A stretch of DNA of 36,422 bases from Opitutaceae bacterium EW11. GTDB lineage: Bacteria > Verrucomicrobiota > Verrucomicrobiia > Opitutales > Opitutaceae. The stretch lies in assembly GCA_003054665.1 (NCBI GenBank), contig QAYY01000011.1:1-36422 (forward strand). The letters are read 5' to 3'. Under the pieces are notes generated by a model, which was given only the letters and a program-made list of their open reading frames with translations, had not been told where the DNA came from and ran no database searches. The translations under genes and the position numbers were made by a program. Shown here in pieces: positions 18,223 to 27,417 of this stretch (positions are counted from its first letter, which is position 1; every line of letters starts with the position of its first letter).

Positions 18223-18648
18223 ATGAAGAAAATCCTCCAACTCCAGTTCCTGCCAACGAGCGCCGACCTGGCGCTGCTTCTCCTGAGGCTCTGGTTCGGC
18301 CTGCCGCTGCTTCTTTTGCACGGCATCCCGAAGCTGATGGATTTTCGTGCCGAGGCTGGCAGCTTTCCCGATCCGCTGGGAGTCGGTTCGCCCATCAGCC
18401 TGGGTCTGGCAATCCTCGGCGAAGTGGTCTGTTCGTCGCTCCTCGTGCTCGGTCTTTTCACGCGGCTCGCAGCTTTGGGCGCCGGAACAACGATGGCGGT
18501 GGCGTTCTGGCGCGTGCATCATCTCACGCTTCGCGGTGAGGCCAGTGGCGAACTCGCCTATGTGTACCTGGGCGTATTCGTCGCGCTCCTTCTTGCCGGC
18601 GCCGGGCGTTTTTCGCTCGATGCGCGAAGCGGCGGAGCGAAGGGCTGA
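18223..18648 (+). CDS. DoxX family membrane protein
   Basis: A 141-residue inner-membrane protein with four predicted helices, around residues 15-37 (LALLLLRLWFGLPLLLLHG), 60-80 (LGLAILGEVVCSSLLVLGL), 83-103 and 115-132. The pattern of a first-helix RLWFG with HGIPKL right after it, and LGEVVCSSLLVLGLFTR in the second half, is the DoxX/DUF417-like core. Relatives take part in thiosulfate metabolism or oxidative-stress complexes, but most are uncharacterised. The gene is divergent from korA (194 bases between start codons) and is followed by a long non-coding leader belonging to the next gene. Confidence 0.88.
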   Translation: MKKILQLQFLPTSADLALLLLRLWFGLPLLLLHGIPKLMDFRAEAGSFPDPLGVGSPISLGLAILGEVVCSSLLVLGLFTRLAALGAGTTMAVAFWRVHHLTLRGEASGELAYVYLGVFVALLLAGAGRFSLDARSGGAKG

Positions 18649-18841
18649 GGCGGCGGCGCCGCCTCGGGGAGGAATCCTCGACTTGAGCTCACGCGGACAC
18701 GCGACGACCGAACTCGCGGTTGTCGCGATCGCACGTTGGCTTCATCGACCGGCCATCGCGCAAGTGGCTGGCCGCTGGCAGTTTCCGGCGCTAGCTTGAC
18801 GCCGCTCGCCGCTGCGGCAGATTCCCGCCGTTCTTTGGACC

Positions 18842-18995
18842 GCAGCCTAAACCGCCGGCGCTTCCTCGCCGGCCGGTACGGGGGACCCAAATTCTCAGCC
18901 TCCGCTGAGACGGGGCGAACGCTCACTGGCGACAGTGGGCAAGGCCACTTCTGAGGCCAAGCCCGTCAGCTAACCTCGTCGGCATTCTGGAAGGG
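18842..18995 (+). promoter_or_regulatory. Cyclic-di-AMP riboswitch (ydaO/yuaA class)
   Basis: The leader of the potassium transporter carries the conserved ydaO core in order. GCC (18845-18847) is followed by TAAACC. A hairpin GCCGGCG...CGCCGGC leads to GGTACGGGGGACCC (18875-18888), hairpin TCTCAGC/GCTGAGA (18893-18899, 18904-18910), then GGGGCGAAC (18912-18920). Next come hairpin CACTG/CAGTG (18924-18928, 18933-18937), a GGCC/GGCC arm (18943-18958), and CCCGTCAGCTAACCTCG (18962-18978). GGC (18981-18983) closes with the first GCC, followed by GGAAGG (18989-18994). These blocks match what I remember of the Thermoanaerobacter and Bacillus aptamers, where ligand binding turns off potassium uptake genes. 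The class and the KimA gene downstream support each other. Confidence 0.93.
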
Positions 18996-19006
18996 CGATC
19001 CTCTGC

Positions 19007-19022
19007 CCCGTCGAGTGACGGG
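19007..19022 (+). promoter_or_regulatory. Candidate expression-platform hairpin of the riboswitch
   Basis: CCCGTC (19007-19012) pairs exactly with GACGGG (19017-19022) around GAGT. The right arm, extended by one base (TGACGGG, 19016-19022), is also the exact complement of CCCGTCA (18962-18968) in the aptamer core, so the two pairings exclude each other. This is the layout of a switching element. No T-run follows the hairpin, so control by Rho, by translation or by RNA decay is as likely as intrinsic termination. Confidence 0.5.
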
Positions 19023-19085
19023 TGCCAAGATCCCCAGTTCGCAACCCATGCCTCGGAGCGCGTTGGCGCACGGGGCTTCGTACTC

Positions 19086-21047
19086 ATGAAGAACTGGAGT
19101 CTGGGCGCTTCTCTGAAGGCGCTCTTCATCGGCCGTTCCCGCGATCTGTCGGATCAGCGGCTGTTTCATCATCTCTCGCTCGTGGCGGTGCTCGCCTGGG
19201 TGGGCCTCGGCGCGGACGGGTTGTCGTCCTCCTGCTACGGACCCGAGGAGTCCTACCGAACGGTTCAGGCGTATCCGGCGCTCAGCCTTTTCGTCGCGTT
19301 GGCGGCGGTGCTGACGATTGCGGTGCTCTGCGCGAGCTACCGCCAGATCATCGCGCGTTTTCCGTCGGGTGGCGGCGGGTACCTCGTGGCGAGCAAACTG
19401 CTTTCGCCCGCCGCGGGTGTGGTATCCGGCTCGGCCCTACTCGTCGATTACGTGCTGACGATCGCGATCTCCGTCGCGAGCGCGGCGGACGCGCTCTTTT
19501 CCGTCGTACCGGCCCATTGGCAGGCGTGGAAACTCGCTGCAGCGTGTGCCGGCGTCGTTGTGCTGACTTTGCTCAACCTTCGGGGAGTGAAGGAGTCCGT
19601 CCAGCTCTGGGTCCCCGTATTTTTCCTCTTCGTGGGAACGCATGCGGGCGCGCTGCTTTTCGCCTTCGGCGCCAATCTCGGAGGCTTTTCGGACCTGGCC
19701 TCGACTGCCGCTTCGCAGATCGCCTCCGCCCGGCACGACCTCGGTTGGTGGGGCATGCTCGCCCTCATGCTGCGCGCCTACAGCCTGGGCGCCGGCACGT
19801 ACACCGGCATCGAGGCGGTGAGCAACGGACTTCCGATCCTTCGCGAGCCGCGGGTCGAGACCGCCCGCCGCACGATGACGTACATGGGGGTGTCGCTTGC
19901 GGTCACGGTGTTCGGTCTGCTCCTGGCGTATCAGTTGTACGCGGTCGTCCCGGCGGAGGGCAAAACGCTCAACGCCGTGTTGCTCGAAGCCGTCACCCGG
20001 GGATGGCCGGCCGCTCTGGGGCGCTGGTTCGTCACGATCGCGATGGGCTCCGCCACGGCGCTGCTCTTCATCGCCGCGCAGGCGGGGTTTCTCGACGGGC
20101 CGCGGGTGCTGGCGACGATGGCGCTGGATCGCTGGTTCCCGGCCCGCTTTGCCGCGCTGAGCGACCGCTTCGTGACGCAAAACGGGATCCTTTTCATGGG
20201 CGGGACCGCACTCGCCGTGCTCCTCTTGACCCACGGTTCCGTCGGCACGCTCGTGGTGCTCTACAGTATCAATGTGTTCATTACGTTCTCGCTCTCGCAG
20301 CTCGGCATGGTGGTCGATGCCTGGCGGCGTCGCGGACAGGGCCCGGGCTGGCGCCGGCAGGCGCTGATCAACGGCTCGGGTCTGTTGCTTACCTCGGGCG
20401 TGCTCGTTTCGCTCTGCGTCACGAAATTCAGCGAGGGCGGATGGATCACGCTGGCGGTGACGGGCGTGGTGATCGCGGCCGCAGCCTACGTGCGCCGCCA
20501 CTACCGCAGCGCACACGCGGATCTGCAGCGCCTGGACGTCCTGGTCGACGCAATGCGCAAGGACCCGGGGAGCCTCGGCCGGCCTGCTGCGCCCGAGCGG
20601 GTCGCGGTGGTTCTGGTCAACGGCTTCAATTCGCTTGGCCTGCACACGCTCCTCGGCGTGGCCCGGCTGTTTCCGAACACCTTCGGCCGTTACGTCTTCG
20701 TTCAGGTGGGGGTGATCGACGCGGGCACCTTCAAAGGTTCGGAGGAGATCGCACGGTTGCGCGAGACGACGGCTGCGGGCGCCGAGCGTTACGTGGAGCT
20801 TGCGCGGCAGCATGGCTACGCGGCGGAGTCCGTTGTCGACCTCAGCCACGATATCGTCGGTGCGATCGACGAGATCGGGGACCGCGTGGCGGAGAAGTAT
20901 CCGGGCGCCGTGTTTTTCTCCGGGCAGCTGGCCTTTACGCACGAGACGCGGCTGACCCGCTGGCTTCACAACTACGCCGTCTTCGCTCTGCAGCGGATCT
21001 TCTGCCGCAAAGGCATGCCCTTCGTGATCGTCCCCGCTCGGGTCTAG
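19086..21047 (+). CDS. kimA: KimA-type APC-family potassium transporter
   Basis: A 653-residue inner-membrane protein with about twelve helices (residues 30-480) and a C-terminal cytoplasmic domain of about 165 residues. Key segments match what I recall of Bacillus KimA (YdaO): GADGLSSSCYGPEE (Asp44 and Tyr51 in the first helix break), SYRQIIARFPSGGGGYLV, GSALLVDYVLTIAIS, LNLRGVKES, and YTGIEAVSNGLPIL. KimA imports K+ using the proton gradient and is inhibited by cyclic-di-AMP both at the RNA and, in Bacillus, at the protein level. The leader upstream is a cyclic-di-AMP riboswitch, which strongly supports the call over a generic amino-acid permease. The start ATG at 19086 has no strong ribosome-binding site; it follows the riboswitch by about 90 bases. 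Confidence 0.9.
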   Translation: MKNWSLGASLKALFIGRSRDLSDQRLFHHLSLVAVLAWVGLGADGLSSSCYGPEESYRTVQAYPALSLFVALAAVLTIAVLCASYRQIIARFPSGGGGYLVASKLLSPAAGVVSGSALLVDYVLTIAISVASAADALFSVVPAHWQAWKLAAACAGVVVLTLLNLRGVKESVQLWVPVFFLFVGTHAGALLFAFGANLGGFSDLASTAASQIASARHDLGWWGMLALMLRAYSLGAGTYTGIEAVSNGLPILREPRVETARRTMTYMGVSLAVTVFGLLLAYQLYAVVPAEGKTLNAVLLEAVTRGWPAALGRWFVTIAMGSATALLFIAAQAGFLDGPRVLATMALDRWFPARFAALSDRFVTQNGILFMGGTALAVLLLTHGSVGTLVVLYSINVFITFSLSQLGMVVDAWRRRGQGPGWRRQALINGSGLLLTSGVLVSLCVTKFSEGGWITLAVTGVVIAAAAYVRRHYRSAHADLQRLDVLVDAMRKDPGSLGRPAAPERVAVVLVNGFNSLGLHTLLGVARLFPNTFGRYVFVQVGVIDAGTFKGSEEIARLRETTAAGAERYVELARQHGYAAESVVDLSHDIVGAIDEIGDRVAEKYPGAVFFSGQLAFTHETRLTRWLHNYAVFALQRIFCRKGMPFVIVPARV

Positions 21048-21210: not shown

Positions 21211-23007
21211 CTACTCCCAGCCGATTTGCCGCCCCTTGTTCTGTTCCTCCAGCCACGTCATCAGCGGCTGGAAGTATTCCACCATCGCCTTCGTCGACAG
21301 ATCTTCGCCCGTGGCTTCGCGCAACACCTTTCGCCAATCTTCCGTGCCGCCCTTCTCCATGATTTTCCGCAGGAAGTCGCCGACTTCCTTGTTGTTGGCG
21401 TAATTGCAGGCCTGGACCGGCTGGTGGAGGATGTTCTTCGCGATGTAGGCGTGTAACTGGAATTTCAATACTGTCGCAAAGGCGTACGAGTAGTAGTAGG
21501 CGGGCGTGTCGTTGATGTGCGTCTTGGTGGCTGCGTCGCACCACTCCTCTCCACGCTCGGACGGAGGCTCGACGCCCTGGAAGTCGCGAACGTAGCTCCA
21601 CCAGCGTGCGTTCCACTGGTTCGCCGGGAGGTTGTGGGCGTAGATGTCGGCCTCCCAGTGCGTCATCGTGCCGGAGGACCAGAAGATGAACGCCACGCCG
21701 TTTGCGAGGGCATCGTTGAGTAGAAAGGCGGTCTGGTCGGCTTTGTAGTCGGAGGGAAGGACCCCGAGCGACTGCAGGTATGGCACTTGGCTCGAGGCCA
21801 GGGATATCAGTTCGCCCATGCCTTCGTGGAAGGCCGGATTGGCTCCGAGCCGCAGCAGAGGCGGGACCTCGGGGCGCGTGTAGCTCATGAAGTAGTAGCC
21901 GTGCCCGAGTTCATGATGGGCCGTGTAGAACCATTGGGCGTTGGGTTCGATGCTCTGCAGGGAGCGAATGTCGTTCGCGAGATCGATGTGCCAGCACGAG
22001 GCGTGCGTGTTCTTTTTCCGGGGGCTGCCCGCAGGGACGGGGTAGAGGTCTGACTTGGTCCAGAACGATGCGGGAAGGGGACGGAAGCCGAGGCCCGTGT
22101 AGAACTGTTCGGCGGTTTTGATCACCCACTCCGCGGTGTGGCCTTTGAAGCGGTCGTCGAGGTTGGCCGCGTCGACGAGCCCGGTCCACTCCTGCGCCCA
22201 GCGATTGTTGATCCAGTGCGCCGGGATCCGCTTCGGCACAGGCTGGTGATATTTCTCCGCCAAGCGGTATTTGGCCCACGTGTGGAGCTGAAGGTACAGC
22301 GGGCGGAGCTCGCGCATGAATTCCTCCTGCAGCTTCACCATCTCTTCGGTCGTCATGTCGTAGGATGCGACCTGGAGCGCGAAGTAGTCGGGATGCCCGA
22401 GCTCGCGTGCGACGCCGTTGCGCAGATCCCGCAGTTTGACCAGGCCCGGCCTGAGGGCGGGGCCTGACTCCTTTGACGCCTCCCATACGGCGCGCCGCTC
22501 GGCGAGGTCAGTCGAGTTCCCCAGCCGGTCGTCGATCTGATTCACCGTGATGGGCTTTCCCTGCAGCTGAAACGGGAAGCTGTTCAGGATCGAAGCCTGC
22601 TTGGTTTCGGCGGCGATGCGCGCTGCGACCAACTCTGGATTCGTCATCGGACCTTCGGCTGCGTTCAGCAGGACGCGCTGGAGCTCGCGGACGGTGATGT
22701 CGCTCAGCTGATCGCGCGACTTGAGAAGCTCCTTCGCTTCGTTGATCAGCGCAGGATTGCCGTTGAAGGCGGCATACGCTTTCCCGGCCGTCTCGGAGGC
22801 GGCGTCGTGCTCCAGCGTCACGTCGGTCGCGGCGGCCCATTGGGCTTCGCTGCTGACGGTGTAGAGGGCGCGGTAACCGGAGTTCACCAACGCGAGGAAC
22901 TGGTCGGCGCGCTCCTGAGCGGGCGTGGCGGCGACGAGAGCGAAAGGCAACAGGGACGGAAGCGCGACGCAGGCCGCGGCGCGGGCAAGGAGGCGGAGAA
23001 TTCGCAT
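21211..23007 (-). CDS. Exported M2-family (angiotensin-converting-enzyme-like) peptidyl-dipeptidase
   Basis: A 598-residue zinc metallopeptidase. Residues 1-27 are a signal peptide (basic start, hydrophobic core, VAA before TPAQE), so it acts in the periplasm or outside. The gluzincin motif is HHELGHG with ligands His365 and His369 and general base Glu366; the third ligand is Glu395 in AFHEGMGEL. PNAQWFYTAHHELGH and the later SYAFATVLKFQLHAYIA are typical of ACE-like enzymes, which release C-terminal dipeptides. Length fits single-domain bacterial M2 enzymes. No membrane anchor is seen at the C-terminus. It is divergent from the RND efflux operon across about 220 bases and convergent with kimA. 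Confidence 0.94.
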   Translation of the reverse strand: MRILRLLARAAACVALPSLLPFALVAATPAQERADQFLALVNSGYRALYTVSSEAQWAAATDVTLEHDAASETAGKAYAAFNGNPALINEAKELLKSRDQLSDITVRELQRVLLNAAEGPMTNPELVAARIAAETKQASILNSFPFQLQGKPITVNQIDDRLGNSTDLAERRAVWEASKESGPALRPGLVKLRDLRNGVARELGHPDYFALQVASYDMTTEEMVKLQEEFMRELRPLYLQLHTWAKYRLAEKYHQPVPKRIPAHWINNRWAQEWTGLVDAANLDDRFKGHTAEWVIKTAEQFYTGLGFRPLPASFWTKSDLYPVPAGSPRKKNTHASCWHIDLANDIRSLQSIEPNAQWFYTAHHELGHGYYFMSYTRPEVPPLLRLGANPAFHEGMGELISLASSQVPYLQSLGVLPSDYKADQTAFLLNDALANGVAFIFWSSGTMTHWEADIYAHNLPANQWNARWWSYVRDFQGVEPPSERGEEWCDAATKTHINDTPAYYYSYAFATVLKFQLHAYIAKNILHQPVQACNYANNKEVGDFLRKIMEKGGTEDWRKVLREATGEDLSTKAMVEYFQPLMTWLEEQNKGRQIGWE

Positions 23008-23121: not shown

Positions 23122-23224
23122 GTAAGAGTGAGGCCCATCGATGCACTGGCTCAGTTTCTCTGCTTTTCTTTTTACCGTCTTCCGGCCGGTTGACCGGCTT
23201 CGCGCCGACGGTAGGATCTTTCGC

Positions 23225-24331
23225 ATGTTCGCTGCTTGCTCATCGATTCGGCGTGGCGGAACTACGGGGCCGCGGTCCCGCTTTGCGCGAGCCTGTCGGC
23301 TCTGGAGTCGGCTTGGTTTTGCGGTGACAGGGGCGGGTTTGCTGCTGGGCGGTTGTGGCCAGCGGCACTCCGGCGAGGTGGCGGCGCCGCTGGTTCAGGT
23401 GATCGCGGTTGCGCCGCGTGCCATCCAGGACGAAGTCGTCGCTTCGGGGACCATCGAGGCAGTCCAGAAATCACAGTTGGGGTTTCTGGTTCCAGGGCGA
23501 ATCGTCGCGGTGGACGTGGAGGAGGGGACCGACGTGGTGCCCGGGCAGCTGCTGGCGCGCCTCGAGGACTCCGACTACCGGGACCAGCTGGCGGCTTCGG
23601 AGGCGAGGCTCACCGAAGTGAAGGCCCGCTTTGAACGGATCAACCGGCTGCACGAGCTGGGAAGCGCCACCGCAACGGATTTTGAGAAACTCCAGAGCGG
23701 CCTCACGGAGGCGCAGGCCGCGGTCGATGTCGCTCGCCGCAGGGTGGAATACACGCGGTTGACCGCCCCGTTCGCCGGCAGAGTGGTACGCCATGGCCCG
23801 TCTGCGGGCACGGTCGTCGCTCCTGGGACGCCGGTGCTGTCGGTACTCGCCCCGGCCCCGGTTTGGGCGACCGTCGGGGTGCCGGAGGCCGAGGCGCGCA
23901 AGGTGCAGGTGGGGCAACCTGCGCACGTGATCCTTCCGGCGGTGCGGGAATTGACGGTGACGGGCCCCGTGGAGGCGGTGCTGCCCCAGGCCGACCCGCT
24001 GTCGCGCTCGTACACCGTGAAAGTCCGCCTCGAGAACTCCGACGGCAAACTGCCGCTTGGCGCGATTGTCACGGCCCGCATCGACGCAGGGGGCCAGCGC
24101 TCCGCGATCCTGATCCCGCCCCAGGTGGTTCATCGGTTTCCCGACGGCGCGCTCTTTGTCTGGGTGATCGACCCACAGCGCAGCACGGTATCGCGGCGGA
24201 TTGTCGGAATCGGTCCGCCTGAGGGCTCGGAAATCGAGATCGTGACGGGCTTGGAGCCGGGGGACCGCGTGGTGCGGACGGCGCCCGACGCGTTTTTCGA
24301 CGGCATGCCGGTGAGAACGGTATCCCCATGA
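23225..24331 (+). CDS. RND efflux periplasmic adaptor, lipoprotein type
   Basis: A 368-residue membrane-fusion protein. The N-terminus has a basic stretch, a hydrophobic segment and a lipobox LLLGGC (Cys44), so it is likely lipid-anchored in the inner membrane. The lipoyl half-motifs are GFLVPGRIVAVDVEEGTDV and APFAGRVVRHGPSAGTVV, flanking a helical hairpin (LAASEARLTEVKARFERI to EAQAAVDVARRRVEY). Beta-barrel and membrane-proximal domains follow. The ATG at 23225 is chosen with AGGA nine bases upstream; the frame is open to an ATG at 23141. The stop overlaps the pump start by four bases (ATGA), so translation is coupled. Confidence 0.92.
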   Translation: MFAACSSIRRGGTTGPRSRFARACRLWSRLGFAVTGAGLLLGGCGQRHSGEVAAPLVQVIAVAPRAIQDEVVASGTIEAVQKSQLGFLVPGRIVAVDVEEGTDVVPGQLLARLEDSDYRDQLAASEARLTEVKARFERINRLHELGSATATDFEKLQSGLTEAQAAVDVARRRVEYTRLTAPFAGRVVRHGPSAGTVVAPGTPVLSVLAPAPVWATVGVPEAEARKVQVGQPAHVILPAVRELTVTGPVEAVLPQADPLSRSYTVKVRLENSDGKLPLGAIVTARIDAGGQRSAILIPPQVVHRFPDGALFVWVIDPQRSTVSRRIVGIGPPEGSEIEIVTGLEPGDRVVRTAPDAFFDGMPVRTVSP

Positions 24332-27300
24332 GCCTTCTCCGCTGGCCGCTCAAACATCGCCACGTCGCGGTGGTGATGAGCCTCATCATTCTAGGGCTTG
24401 GGGTGCATTCGTTGCTGACGATGCCCCGGCAGGACACGCCGAAAATCCAGATTCACCAGGCTTTGGTGATGACGTGGTTTCCGGGAGCGACCGCGGCCCA
24501 GGTCGAGCAGCAGCTGACCCGGCCGATCGAGTCGTACCTGTTCACGTTTACGGAGATCAACCCGAAGAAGACCCACTCCGTCACGCGCGACGGTCTGGTC
24601 GTGATCACGGTGGAACTGCAGGAATGGGTGCCCGACAAGGAGGCCTTTTGGTCCCGCCTTCGCCTCGGGTTGGCGGAACTGAAACAGAAGAGCCTGCCTT
24701 CGGAGTCGATTGGACCGCTGGTCAACTCGGATTTCGGAGAATCGGTCGCGCTCCTCATCGGCGTGACCTCTCCCAAGCGCACCTATGCGGAGCTGCGGCG
24801 TTACCTCGAGCGCATCGAGGACGGACTTCGCACAGTCGACGGAGCCGGGAGGCTCGTGCGATACGGCGAACGCGAGGAGACGATCTATGTCGAAGCCGAC
24901 TCGCAGCGGCTCTCTCGTTACCGTGTCGGGCTTTCCCAGGTCGTGCAGGCGCTTCGACTTCAGAATGCGACGCCGTACTCCGGCACGCTGAAGACCGGCG
25001 ATCTGGCTGTCCCGCTTCATACCCGCGGGCGGTACTCGTCGCTGGAAGAGGTGAAGCAGCAGGTGGTCTATGCCAACCCGCTCAACGAGCAGGTCGTCCG
25101 CATCGGTGACGTCGCCCGGGTCGAGCGCAGGCTGGCGGATGCCGACTCGTTGCTCCGGATCAACGGACAGGACGCTCCGGTGCTGCTGCTCTCGCTCGAG
25201 ATGCAGCCGGGGCGGAACATCGTGGCTTTCGGCAAGGATGTTCAGGCGAAACTTGCCGAGCTTCGGGCTTTGCTCCCGGCCGATCTCTCGCTGCACGTCA
25301 TCAACGACCAGCCGGGCGTGGTCGCCACGGCCGTGAATCACTTCATCCGCGAGTTTTTCGTCGCTGTGGCGGCAGTGGTTCTCGTGACGATGCTATTGCT
25401 CCCGCTCCGGGTCGCGGCCATCGCGGCGATGGCGATACCCGTCACGATCGCGTTCACCTTCAAAGCGCTCGAGGTGCTCGGGATTCCGTTGCACGAGGTC
25501 TCGCTCGCCTCGCTCATCGTCGTGTTGGGCATGGTGGTGGACGACGCCATTGTGATCGCCGACAACTACGTCGAGAAGCTCGACGAAGGGCTGGACCACT
25601 GGGATGCGGCATGGAAGAGCGCCGGCGAACTGGCGGTGCCGGTTTTCACGGCCACCATCGCCATCGTCCTGGCTTTTGCACCGCTCGCGTTTTTCCTCAC
25701 CGGTTCAGTGGGAGAGTTCATTCGTGCTTTGCCGATCACCGTGGCGATCGCGCTGGTCGCGTCCTTTGTCGTGGCGATGCTGTTCACGCCGCTGCTCTGC
25801 TACACCTTCATCCGGCAGGGATTGAAGGCGCAGGGTCGCAGCATCGGAGCGAGCGTGCTGGACTTCGTGCAGCGGCGCTACACGGCGATGATCCACCCCA
25901 TCGTGCGCCATCCCTGGCTGGCGATCGCCGCCGGCGTGGCTTCCCTCGCGGCGGGTGCGGTGCTCCTGCTTGCGGTGCGGCAGAAGTTCTTTCCCGCAGC
26001 GGAACGCGCGCAATTTGTGATCGAGATCGACCAACCGCTCGGCACGCGGCTCGAGGCCACCGACGGCGTCGTGCGCAAGGTCGAAACCCTGCTCCAGGGG
26101 GACTCGAGAATCACGGGTTTCGCCGCGTTTGTCGGCACTGCCGCGCCTCGGGTCTACTACAGCTTCGCCCCGGAGTTTCCCCGCAGCAGTTACGGTATGC
26201 TCCTCGTCAATACGCACAGCGACAAGGAGACGGATGAGGCCGTGCGCGACTATGCGCGCAAATTTGCCGGCATCAGCGCGACGGCCCGGGTCAACGTGAT
26301 GAGTTTCCAGCAGGGTATTCCCGTCGAAGCCCCTGTGGAGGTGAGGATCGTGGGACCGGAGTTGGAGACGTTGAGAAGGCTTGGCGACGAGGTCCGGCGG
26401 GTTTTCCTCCGCGCGCCGGGGGCGACTCAAGTGCGCGACGATTTGCTCGATACTTTTGCGCTCGATCTGAGGGTGAACAACGAAGTCGCGAATCGGGCGG
26501 GGTTGGCGACCAGCGTGATCGCTTCGCAGGTGATGACGGGCTTCACCGGGCTCCCCGTGACTCAACTTTGGGAGCACGACGCGCCGGTGCCGATCGTCCT
26601 GCGCCTCGATCCGGCGCATCGGGAGACTTTCTCAGGTCTCGACGAATTCATGCTGCGTTCGCCGGTCACACAGGGTGCGATCGCCTTCAACCAAGTGGCG
26701 GACGTGGAACCGGTCTGGAGCGTGGGCCAGATACCGCGGCGAGCCGGTGTGCGGACCCTGACGGTTCGTGCGAATCCTGCGACCGACGTGCTACCTTCGC
26801 AGGTGTTGGCGCCGATCCGGGAGGAACTGGGGAAGATCAAGCTGCCGCCTGGCTATCGATTTGAAATTGGCGGCGAGTTCGAAGGGCAGGAGGAGACCTT
26901 CACGAAAATGGTCGGCGCGTTGATCGCCAGCGTCGTCATGATCTATCTCGTGCTGCTTTTTCAGTTCAAGAGCTCGCGTGAGACCGGGCTTGTCATGTTG
27001 GCAATCCCTCTGACGTTTTTCGGCGCGATGCTCGGCTTGGTGATGACGGGAAACCCGTTGGGGTTCACGGCCTCGGTGGGACTGATCAGCCTGGTGGGTA
27101 TCGTGATTCGAAACTCTATCATCCTCGTGGATTTTGCGGACGAGTTGAGGCGCCATCATCCGATGGATGCCGCGACGGCGGCAATCCGTGCAGGGGAGCG
27201 CCGGATGCGCCCGATCTTTCTCACTTCGATGGCGGCGGCCGTGGGCGTATTGCCGATGATCATCGCGCGCTCTCCGCTTTGGGCGCCTCTGGCCAGCGTG

Positions 27301-27417
27301 TTTTCGGTCGGTATCCTCTGGTCCATGGTAATGACTCTTCTGGTCATTCCGGCCGTGTACGGGCTCACGACAAAACGGTTTGTCCCGCCGATGGCGAAAC
27401 AGGAGGCGCATCCATGA
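24328..27417 (+). CDS. RND efflux pump, inner-membrane permease
   Basis: A 1029-residue AcrB-like proton-driven exporter with the usual 12 helices and two large periplasmic loops (about 35-335 and 555-855). The first helix is followed by MPRQDTPKIQIHQALV. The proton-relay aspartates are visible in the fourth helix as GMVVDDAIVIADNYVEK. The second half has GGEFEGQEETF before helix 8 and SVGLISLVGIVIRNSIILVD in helix 10. Length and motifs fit the hydrophobe/amphiphile exporters rather than heavy-metal CusA types. Substrates are unknown. It is the middle gene of a three-gene operon overlapping both neighbours by four bases. Confidence 0.95.
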   Translation: MSLLRWPLKHRHVAVVMSLIILGLGVHSLLTMPRQDTPKIQIHQALVMTWFPGATAAQVEQQLTRPIESYLFTFTEINPKKTHSVTRDGLVVITVELQEWVPDKEAFWSRLRLGLAELKQKSLPSESIGPLVNSDFGESVALLIGVTSPKRTYAELRRYLERIEDGLRTVDGAGRLVRYGEREETIYVEADSQRLSRYRVGLSQVVQALRLQNATPYSGTLKTGDLAVPLHTRGRYSSLEEVKQQVVYANPLNEQVVRIGDVARVERRLADADSLLRINGQDAPVLLLSLEMQPGRNIVAFGKDVQAKLAELRALLPADLSLHVINDQPGVVATAVNHFIREFFVAVAAVVLVTMLLLPLRVAAIAAMAIPVTIAFTFKALEVLGIPLHEVSLASLIVVLGMVVDDAIVIADNYVEKLDEGLDHWDAAWKSAGELAVPVFTATIAIVLAFAPLAFFLTGSVGEFIRALPITVAIALVASFVVAMLFTPLLCYTFIRQGLKAQGRSIGASVLDFVQRRYTAMIHPIVRHPWLAIAAGVASLAAGAVLLLAVRQKFFPAAERAQFVIEIDQPLGTRLEATDGVVRKVETLLQGDSRITGFAAFVGTAAPRVYYSFAPEFPRSSYGMLLVNTHSDKETDEAVRDYARKFAGISATARVNVMSFQQGIPVEAPVEVRIVGPELETLRRLGDEVRRVFLRAPGATQVRDDLLDTFALDLRVNNEVANRAGLATSVIASQVMTGFTGLPVTQLWEHDAPVPIVLRLDPAHRETFSGLDEFMLRSPVTQGAIAFNQVADVEPVWSVGQIPRRAGVRTLTVRANPATDVLPSQVLAPIREELGKIKLPPGYRFEIGGEFEGQEETFTKMVGALIASVVMIYLVLLFQFKSSRETGLVMLAIPLTFFGAMLGLVMTGNPLGFTASVGLISLVGIVIRNSIILVDFADELRRHHPMDAATAAIRAGERRMRPIFLTSMAAAVGVLPMIIARSPLWAPLASVFSVGILWSMVMTLLVIPAVYGLTTKRFVPPMAKQEAHP

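Follow-up and report, generated by a model that had tools for sequence, protein, structure and literature searches.

Do members of the Verrucomicrobiota use a cyclic-di-AMP (c-di-AMP) riboswitch to govern potassium import? The question is raised by a gene and its leader in Opitutaceae bacterium EW11 (contig QAYY01000011.1). Note that "the window" refers to the whole stretch of DNA analysed, which is 36,422 nucleotides long. An earlier note, made from the letters alone, had described the ydaO/yuaA aptamer in front of a KimA-type transporter gene, between positions 18842 and 21047. The relevant features are as follows, with individual aptamer blocks read from the sequence.

18834–18999 (+): c-di-AMP (ydaO/yuaA) riboswitch aptamer, RF00379; 60 bits, full model
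18845–18847 (+): aptamer opening block, GCC
18875–18888 (+): aptamer block GGTACGGGGGACCC
18912–18920 (+): aptamer block GGGGCGAAC
18962–18978 (+): aptamer block CCCGTCAGCTAACCTCG
18981–18983 (+): aptamer closing block, GGC
19086–21047 (+): predicted kimA-type K+ importer gene, 653 aa, ATG start; APC/KUP-superfamily core plus C-terminal cytosolic domain

The Rfam covariance model RF00379 matched 18834–18999 on the plus strand, scoring 60 bits (gathering score, 38; E 1.2e-11). The match is full-length (model positions 1–134 of 134) and begins 8 bases upstream of 18842. Hence, the covariance-model check proposed in the earlier note gave a significant result, and the conserved blocks that it listed are all present, in order, on the plus strand. 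Across the 6.4 Mb genome, this is the sole RF00379 match at E <=0.001. The aptamer lies in sense orientation within the leader, and 86 bases separate the end of the match from the ATG of the kimA-type gene. When other RNA families were sought between 18700 and 19130, at lax thresholds, two matches were obtained, each far under its gathering score (14.1 bits where 38 is required, and 12.4 where 35 is), and neither was credible. The predicted ligand, judged from sequence, is c-di-AMP.

The downstream open reading frame stops at 21047, the end position given in the earlier note. In a sequence search of solved structures, its product matched Bacillus subtilis KimA (PDB 6s3k; E 6.3e-58, residues 31–484), which is the only solved relative by sequence. 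A profile of 23 sequences matched solved KimA with an E-value of 1.5e-85. The predicted structure (mean pLDDT 80.8, pTM 0.75) led to the same protein. Thus, the first three structural matches were all KimA entries, the closest being 8b71 (Z 50.7, model residues 38–653), while the top non-KimA transporter had a Z of 37.1. The overall rmsd of the structural alignment was 13.5 Å; this may mean that, in the model, the two domains of the importer are set at a different angle. The cytosolic domain was aligned by predicted fold, and its sequence-only alignment, the second stretch of the profile, was not significant. The KimA label therefore holds by both sequence and predicted fold.

Individual residues were also compared. 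According to PMC10284832, the K+ ligands of B. subtilis KimA are Asp36, Tyr43, Thr230 and Tyr377, and Tyr118/Asn237 form an inhibition-coupling pair; the same source states that E. coli laboratory strains have no c-di-AMP. Counting by hand on the 6s3k alignment, with the residue list from that source, the ligands correspond to D44, Y51, T240 and Y393, and the pair to Y122/N247. All six positions are invariant in 23 of 23 sequences, including that of the window. In the c-di-AMP pocket, His579 and Asn580 are kept as H628 and N629, Gln581 and Ser582 are changed to Y630 and A631, and Arg337 aligns with A353 (R354 is adjacent); note that residues 579–582 were read from the C-terminal profile stretch, which is not significant alone. 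The data support assignment of the product as a predicted K+ importer of the KimA type. Beyond it, the window contains an angiotensin-converting-enzyme-like M2 peptidase gene, adjoining kimA (21211–23007, minus strand), and an RND efflux adaptor and permease pair (23141–27417, plus strand).

If the circuit operates, a diadenylate cyclase should be encoded elsewhere in the genome, as the earlier note predicted. One such gene was located.

L001:1462–2817, contig G000:C8 (−): predicted cyclase gene, EIIA + DacZ_P + DAC; the only DAC gene of the genome

The domain hit (G000:C8:93952-94329) has an E-value of 2.5e-21, and the DAC domain (PF02457) scores 77.7 bits against a Pfam cut-off of 27. The protein, of 451 aa, comprises PTS_EIIA_2 (19–145), DacZ_P (162–285) and DAC (314–439). 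Its EIIA part resembles PtsN structures and its DAC part resembles solved diadenylate cyclases. We aligned 30 cyclases, including that of the window genome; these are the best 30 of 75 listed matches, restricted to those with a locus given. The DGA motif (D373, G374) and the RH pair (R407, H408) occur in 30 of 30. The EIIA histidine, H66, is present in all 29 that reach the region, again including the protein studied here (L108, a 303-aa fragment, falls outside this count). DisA and CdaA carry an RHR motif; in the aligned cyclases, A, S or V stands in place of the last R. We predict, from sequence, that the protein is a diadenylate cyclase that synthesises c-di-AMP. Among the genomes searched, 371 of 387 in the phylum have DAC and 74 of 87 in the order have DacZ_P. 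In the order of the window, DAC E-values are mostly 1e-17 to 1e-24; elsewhere they are mostly 1e-30 to 1e-44, with exceptions both ways. The weaker values fit a separate cyclase class. One such class is DacD, for which a figure legend in PMC6741144 names Lacunisphaera, Coraliomargarita, Puniceicoccaceae and Opitutae members. The cyclase described here likely belongs to it.

The genome encodes further components. One gene has 7TMR-HDED, 7TM-7TMR_HD and HD domains, and we take its product to be a PgpH-like phosphodiesterase. One Kup and one KdpA gene are also present and, because both sit away from the single riboswitch, K+ uptake is not wholly under its control. TrkH was not found in the genome at E <=0.001. 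In E. coli, PtsN governs K+ transport; given this role, fusion of a PtsN-like EIIA domain to the cyclase suggests a deeper link to K+. One genome of a Gram-negative phylum has a full gene set for a c-di-AMP/K+ circuit, from cyclase and phosphodiesterase to riboswitch and importer.

Next, we consider relatives. With strict filters, which may lose weak matches, RF00379 was detected in 23 of 387 phylum genomes sampled (22 above the gathering score) and in 84 of 384 class genomes. We inspected 103 riboswitches, that of the window included. Four matches from the class search had been dropped, one at a contig edge (G540:C130) and three below the gathering score (G490:C26, G664:C202 and G483:C105); that of G012 was kept, though also below this score. 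Two core motifs recur, AGCCCG in 97 of 103 loci and CTAAC in 98 of 103, and the window has both. Targets were called as the best seed match among open reading frames overlapping the riboswitch, or starting <=1500 bases after it, with family names checked on one representative per group. By this measure, homologues of K+ importers stand behind 59 of the 103 riboswitches (KimA 25, Kup 25, TrkH 5, KdpA 4). A further 24 precede Band_7/SPFH-group genes; these fall into three groups (13, 5 and 6 loci), each with a Band_7/SPFH representative, and examples are L032:2172-4106, L042:6269-8335 and L171:614-1969. Relatives of a USP-tailed permease account for 14, with a porin gene coming first in G163. 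The remainder are one porin (G677), one Na_H_Exchanger, one citrate synthase and three without seed assignment. In the permease L158:532-2340, the USP domain is C-terminal. No solved structure is related by sequence to the representative of this group, which might transport K+ or an osmolyte and be so far uncharacterised. The citrate synthase gene, in L026, is an unusual target, directly preceded by a strong RF00379 match (86.3 bits). Among KimA loci, 16 of 22 were scanned and 6 of these 16 have a riboswitch. The pairing of riboswitch and KimA also occurs outside the phylum, in records titled Gemmataceae (L115), Elusimicrobia (L120) and Planctomycetota (L126).

Two doubts about identity can be weighed against these data. 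First, the gene could encode a permease for amino acids instead of an importer of K+. Pfam does call AA_permease_2 (75.7 bits), and also AA_permease, while the sole NCBIfam match is kup, at 23.4 bits and so far under the cut-off of 539.6. However, the sole solved relative by sequence is KimA, the structural Z of 50.7 for KimA compares with 37.1 for the best other transporter, and none of the four K+ ligands varies among 23 sequences. Furthermore, 59 of the 103 riboswitches lead homologues of K+ importers, 25 of them KimA homologues. We consider a permease of this kind very unlikely. The other doubt concerns the aptamer, which could be a relic or have changed its ligand; its 60 bits do fall below the scores of the best relatives (89.9 bits in L003 and 92.8 bits in L126). 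Yet all quoted conserved blocks are intact, the full model is matched, the AGCCCG and CTAAC letters are kept, and genes for a cyclase and a phosphodiesterase exist in the genome. Decay or a new ligand is, in our judgement, less credible than even the permease. Hence, the reading we favour is that a KimA-type K+/H+ importer gene has a c-di-AMP riboswitch in its leader; we hold this to be highly probable as a single reading that includes the regulation described next.

By analogy with Firmicutes, we infer K+/c-di-AMP-dependent repression of this importer gene. Plentiful K+ would raise c-di-AMP, so filling the aptamer, and less importer would be made. Conversely, scarce K+ would lower c-di-AMP and the importer would be made. 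Direct inhibition of the transporter protein by c-di-AMP might provide a second brake. This is possible but uncertain, because the c-di-AMP pocket of the protein is only partly kept. The circuit put forward in the earlier note is thus supported, in that the aptamer, importer and cyclase genes were all found. Its suggestion that this extends the circuit to a phylum where it is little studied is fair, but needs qualifying, since the introduction of PMC6488665 names Verrucomicrobia as one of the phyla in which c-di-AMP riboswitches are predicted. That source thus precedes the present work on the aptamer class, the KimA target and the predicted occurrence in Verrucomicrobia.

How might ligand binding be converted to an output? 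Two elements lie between the aptamer and the gene.

18983–19036 (+): putative expression-platform element, a stem-loop that follows the aptamer at once and shares its first bases with the end of the Rfam match; model R1
19050–19076 (+): hairpin predicted by MFE and centroid folds, immediately upstream of the start codon; its 3' strand has the SD-like GGGG (19072–19075)

In many relatives, the tail has a sequence like UUGGAAGGGCGAUCCUCUGG, then a variable hairpin, then CCACGGUCACCC. We drew 56 tails from the 103 loci by their 5'-arm pattern, so conservation of the 5' arm in the resulting alignment, A1, is partly circular. Removing two APC-type tails and one duplicate left 53, from which 33 were picked by eye for a recognisable 3' arm. 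On these 33, the proposed stem has 80.3% of cells paired, compared with <=56.3% for slid versions. The covariation score, 0.251, was reached by 0 of 500 shuffles (shuffled value 0.178), and slid versions gave <=0.136. One stem pair varies (G-C 21, A-U 5, G-U 5). The number of pairs changed on both sides, 6, is ordinary and was reached by 128 of 500 shuffles. The 3'-arm pattern occurs in 50 of the 56 tails; shuffling the 3' part gave a mean of 31.0 (sd 3.9), and at most 41 in 200 shuffles. The six misses include the window, where the 3' arm falls short of the pattern by one base.

A covariance model, R1, was built from the 33 tails with the window excluded. In a search of the whole genome, which scored 150 of 4454 candidates, the only significant match was window 18983–19036 (E 1.9e-5); the next had an E-value of 1.41, so there was no second significant copy of the tail. 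Among the 102 other riboswitch loci, 48 matched at E <=0.01 (33 training and 15 non-training) and 54 did not. L110 and the Elusimicrobia-titled record L120 were also matched, and L130, among the matches, is the same DNA as L187. RNAalifold, applied to a MAFFT alignment of the 53 tails, returned just three other pairs and not the proposed helix. Similarly, relative to shuffles, the 56 tails were no more stable than the next 52 bases (mean z -0.97 and -1.10; Wilcoxon p 0.50). Hence, the helix rests on the 33 eye-picked tails, the pattern test and the finding, by R1, of a window not used in its making. We regard the stem-loop, from its sequence, as a putative expression-platform element. A predicted fold of the leader pairs CUGGAAGGGC, in the tail, with GCCCGUCAG, in the aptamer core. 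Anti-aptamer switching by this route was not supported since, over 103 loci, the tail-core duplex did not surpass those formed by shuffled tails (mean z -0.04) and was outdone by a reversed-core control (mean z -0.59). In the window itself z was -1.58, with 8% of shuffles equally good. The core itself is nearly invariant.

The mode of output was considered in the same way. A simple consensus scan found no terminator-like site in 18500–19300; shuffles gave a mean of 1.1 (sd 1.0), so a count of zero can readily arise by chance. An intrinsic terminator is not among the features that define RF00379. A promoter scan of this interval, which covered the sigma-70 type alone, was negative. The bases after the window stem, CAGUUCGCAACCC, lack a U run. 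Because no terminator-like site was found, the output is likely not termination in the B. subtilis style, and the leader probably does not use an intrinsic terminator. More likely, the stem-loop at 18983–19036 would act through control of translation start or protein-dependent termination. Separately, R1 gave no match at five KimA loci (L131–L134 and L137). In these, aptamer stem P1 is followed within a few bases by an SD-like sequence, GAGAGG or GAGAGA, and an ATG lies within ~25 bases, which suggests translation control there.

Two other modes deserve comparison with this one. In the classical B. subtilis mode, c-di-AMP binding would let an intrinsic terminator form, stopping transcription before kimA. 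Such termination is reported for the B. subtilis prototype in PMC9960051, and for B. thuringiensis kdp in PMC6488665, and a stem-loop does come after the aptamer here. Even so, the scan yielded 0 terminator-like sites in 18500–19300, albeit a miss that shuffles make unremarkable, and neither the window stem nor the consensus of the 53 tails has a U run. We judge this mode unlikely. Alternatively, the leader could be a genetic ON switch, with c-di-AMP raising expression if, for example, the tail stem sequesters a C-rich strand that otherwise covers the ribosome site. In the 3' arm of the G271 tail, GUCUCC is exactly complementary to an SD-like GGAGAC before a possible start codon, and the window has CCCC in its 3' arm and GGGG before the ATG. 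However, these are single cases and, moreover, a K+ importer turned on by c-di-AMP contradicts known physiology. We rate an ON switch a little lower still, and retain repression through a non-terminator output as the preferred reading.

A wider proposal can be made, though tentatively, and as a whole we think it doubtful. Phosphorylation of the EIIA domain may gate the usually single cyclase in this order. Nitrogen/PEP phosphotransfer would then set c-di-AMP and, thereby, K+ import via riboswitches with a shared non-terminator stem-loop. SPFH genes might also be run phylum-wide, tying K+ homeostasis to membrane organisation. Irrespective of this, the wider set of loci raises testable questions: how a c-di-AMP riboswitch acts without an intrinsic terminator, why 24 of the 103 sampled have Band_7/SPFH-group genes behind them, and which signal reaches a cyclase through a PtsN-like EIIA domain. 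For c-di-AMP riboswitches of this phylum, our literature search gave just a listing, among the matches listed. Of those matches, mostly papers outside subscription, none concerned the tail element, SPFH targets or the EIIA-cyclase. The riboswitch output module in this setting and the sensor domain of the cyclase are little explored.

Finally, the system can be set beside those already known. Compared with the B. subtilis kimA (ydaO) riboswitch, the aptamer family (RF00379), target gene family and leader position are the same. Unlike its B. subtilis counterpart, the window has no terminator-like site in the interval scanned, a stem-loop without a U run, and a Verrucomicrobiota-type genome around it. 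The C. glutamicum nlpC c-di-AMP riboswitch, described in PMC9960051, has no canonical terminator either, and is probably controlled at translation, a mode that is only a candidate in the window. The nlpC target is a cell-wall peptidase, whereas that of the window is a predicted K+ importer. The importer model shares with B. subtilis KimA (6s3k, 8b70, 8b71) the fold, including the cytosolic domain, the K+ ligands and the Tyr118/Asn237 pair; identity is 27–28% over the structural alignments and the c-di-AMP pocket is partly kept. The cyclase has the same DAC domain as DacD enzymes and apparently the same taxonomic neighbourhood, while its PtsN-like EIIA and DacZ_P architecture is absent from the descriptions in the accessible part of PMC6741144.
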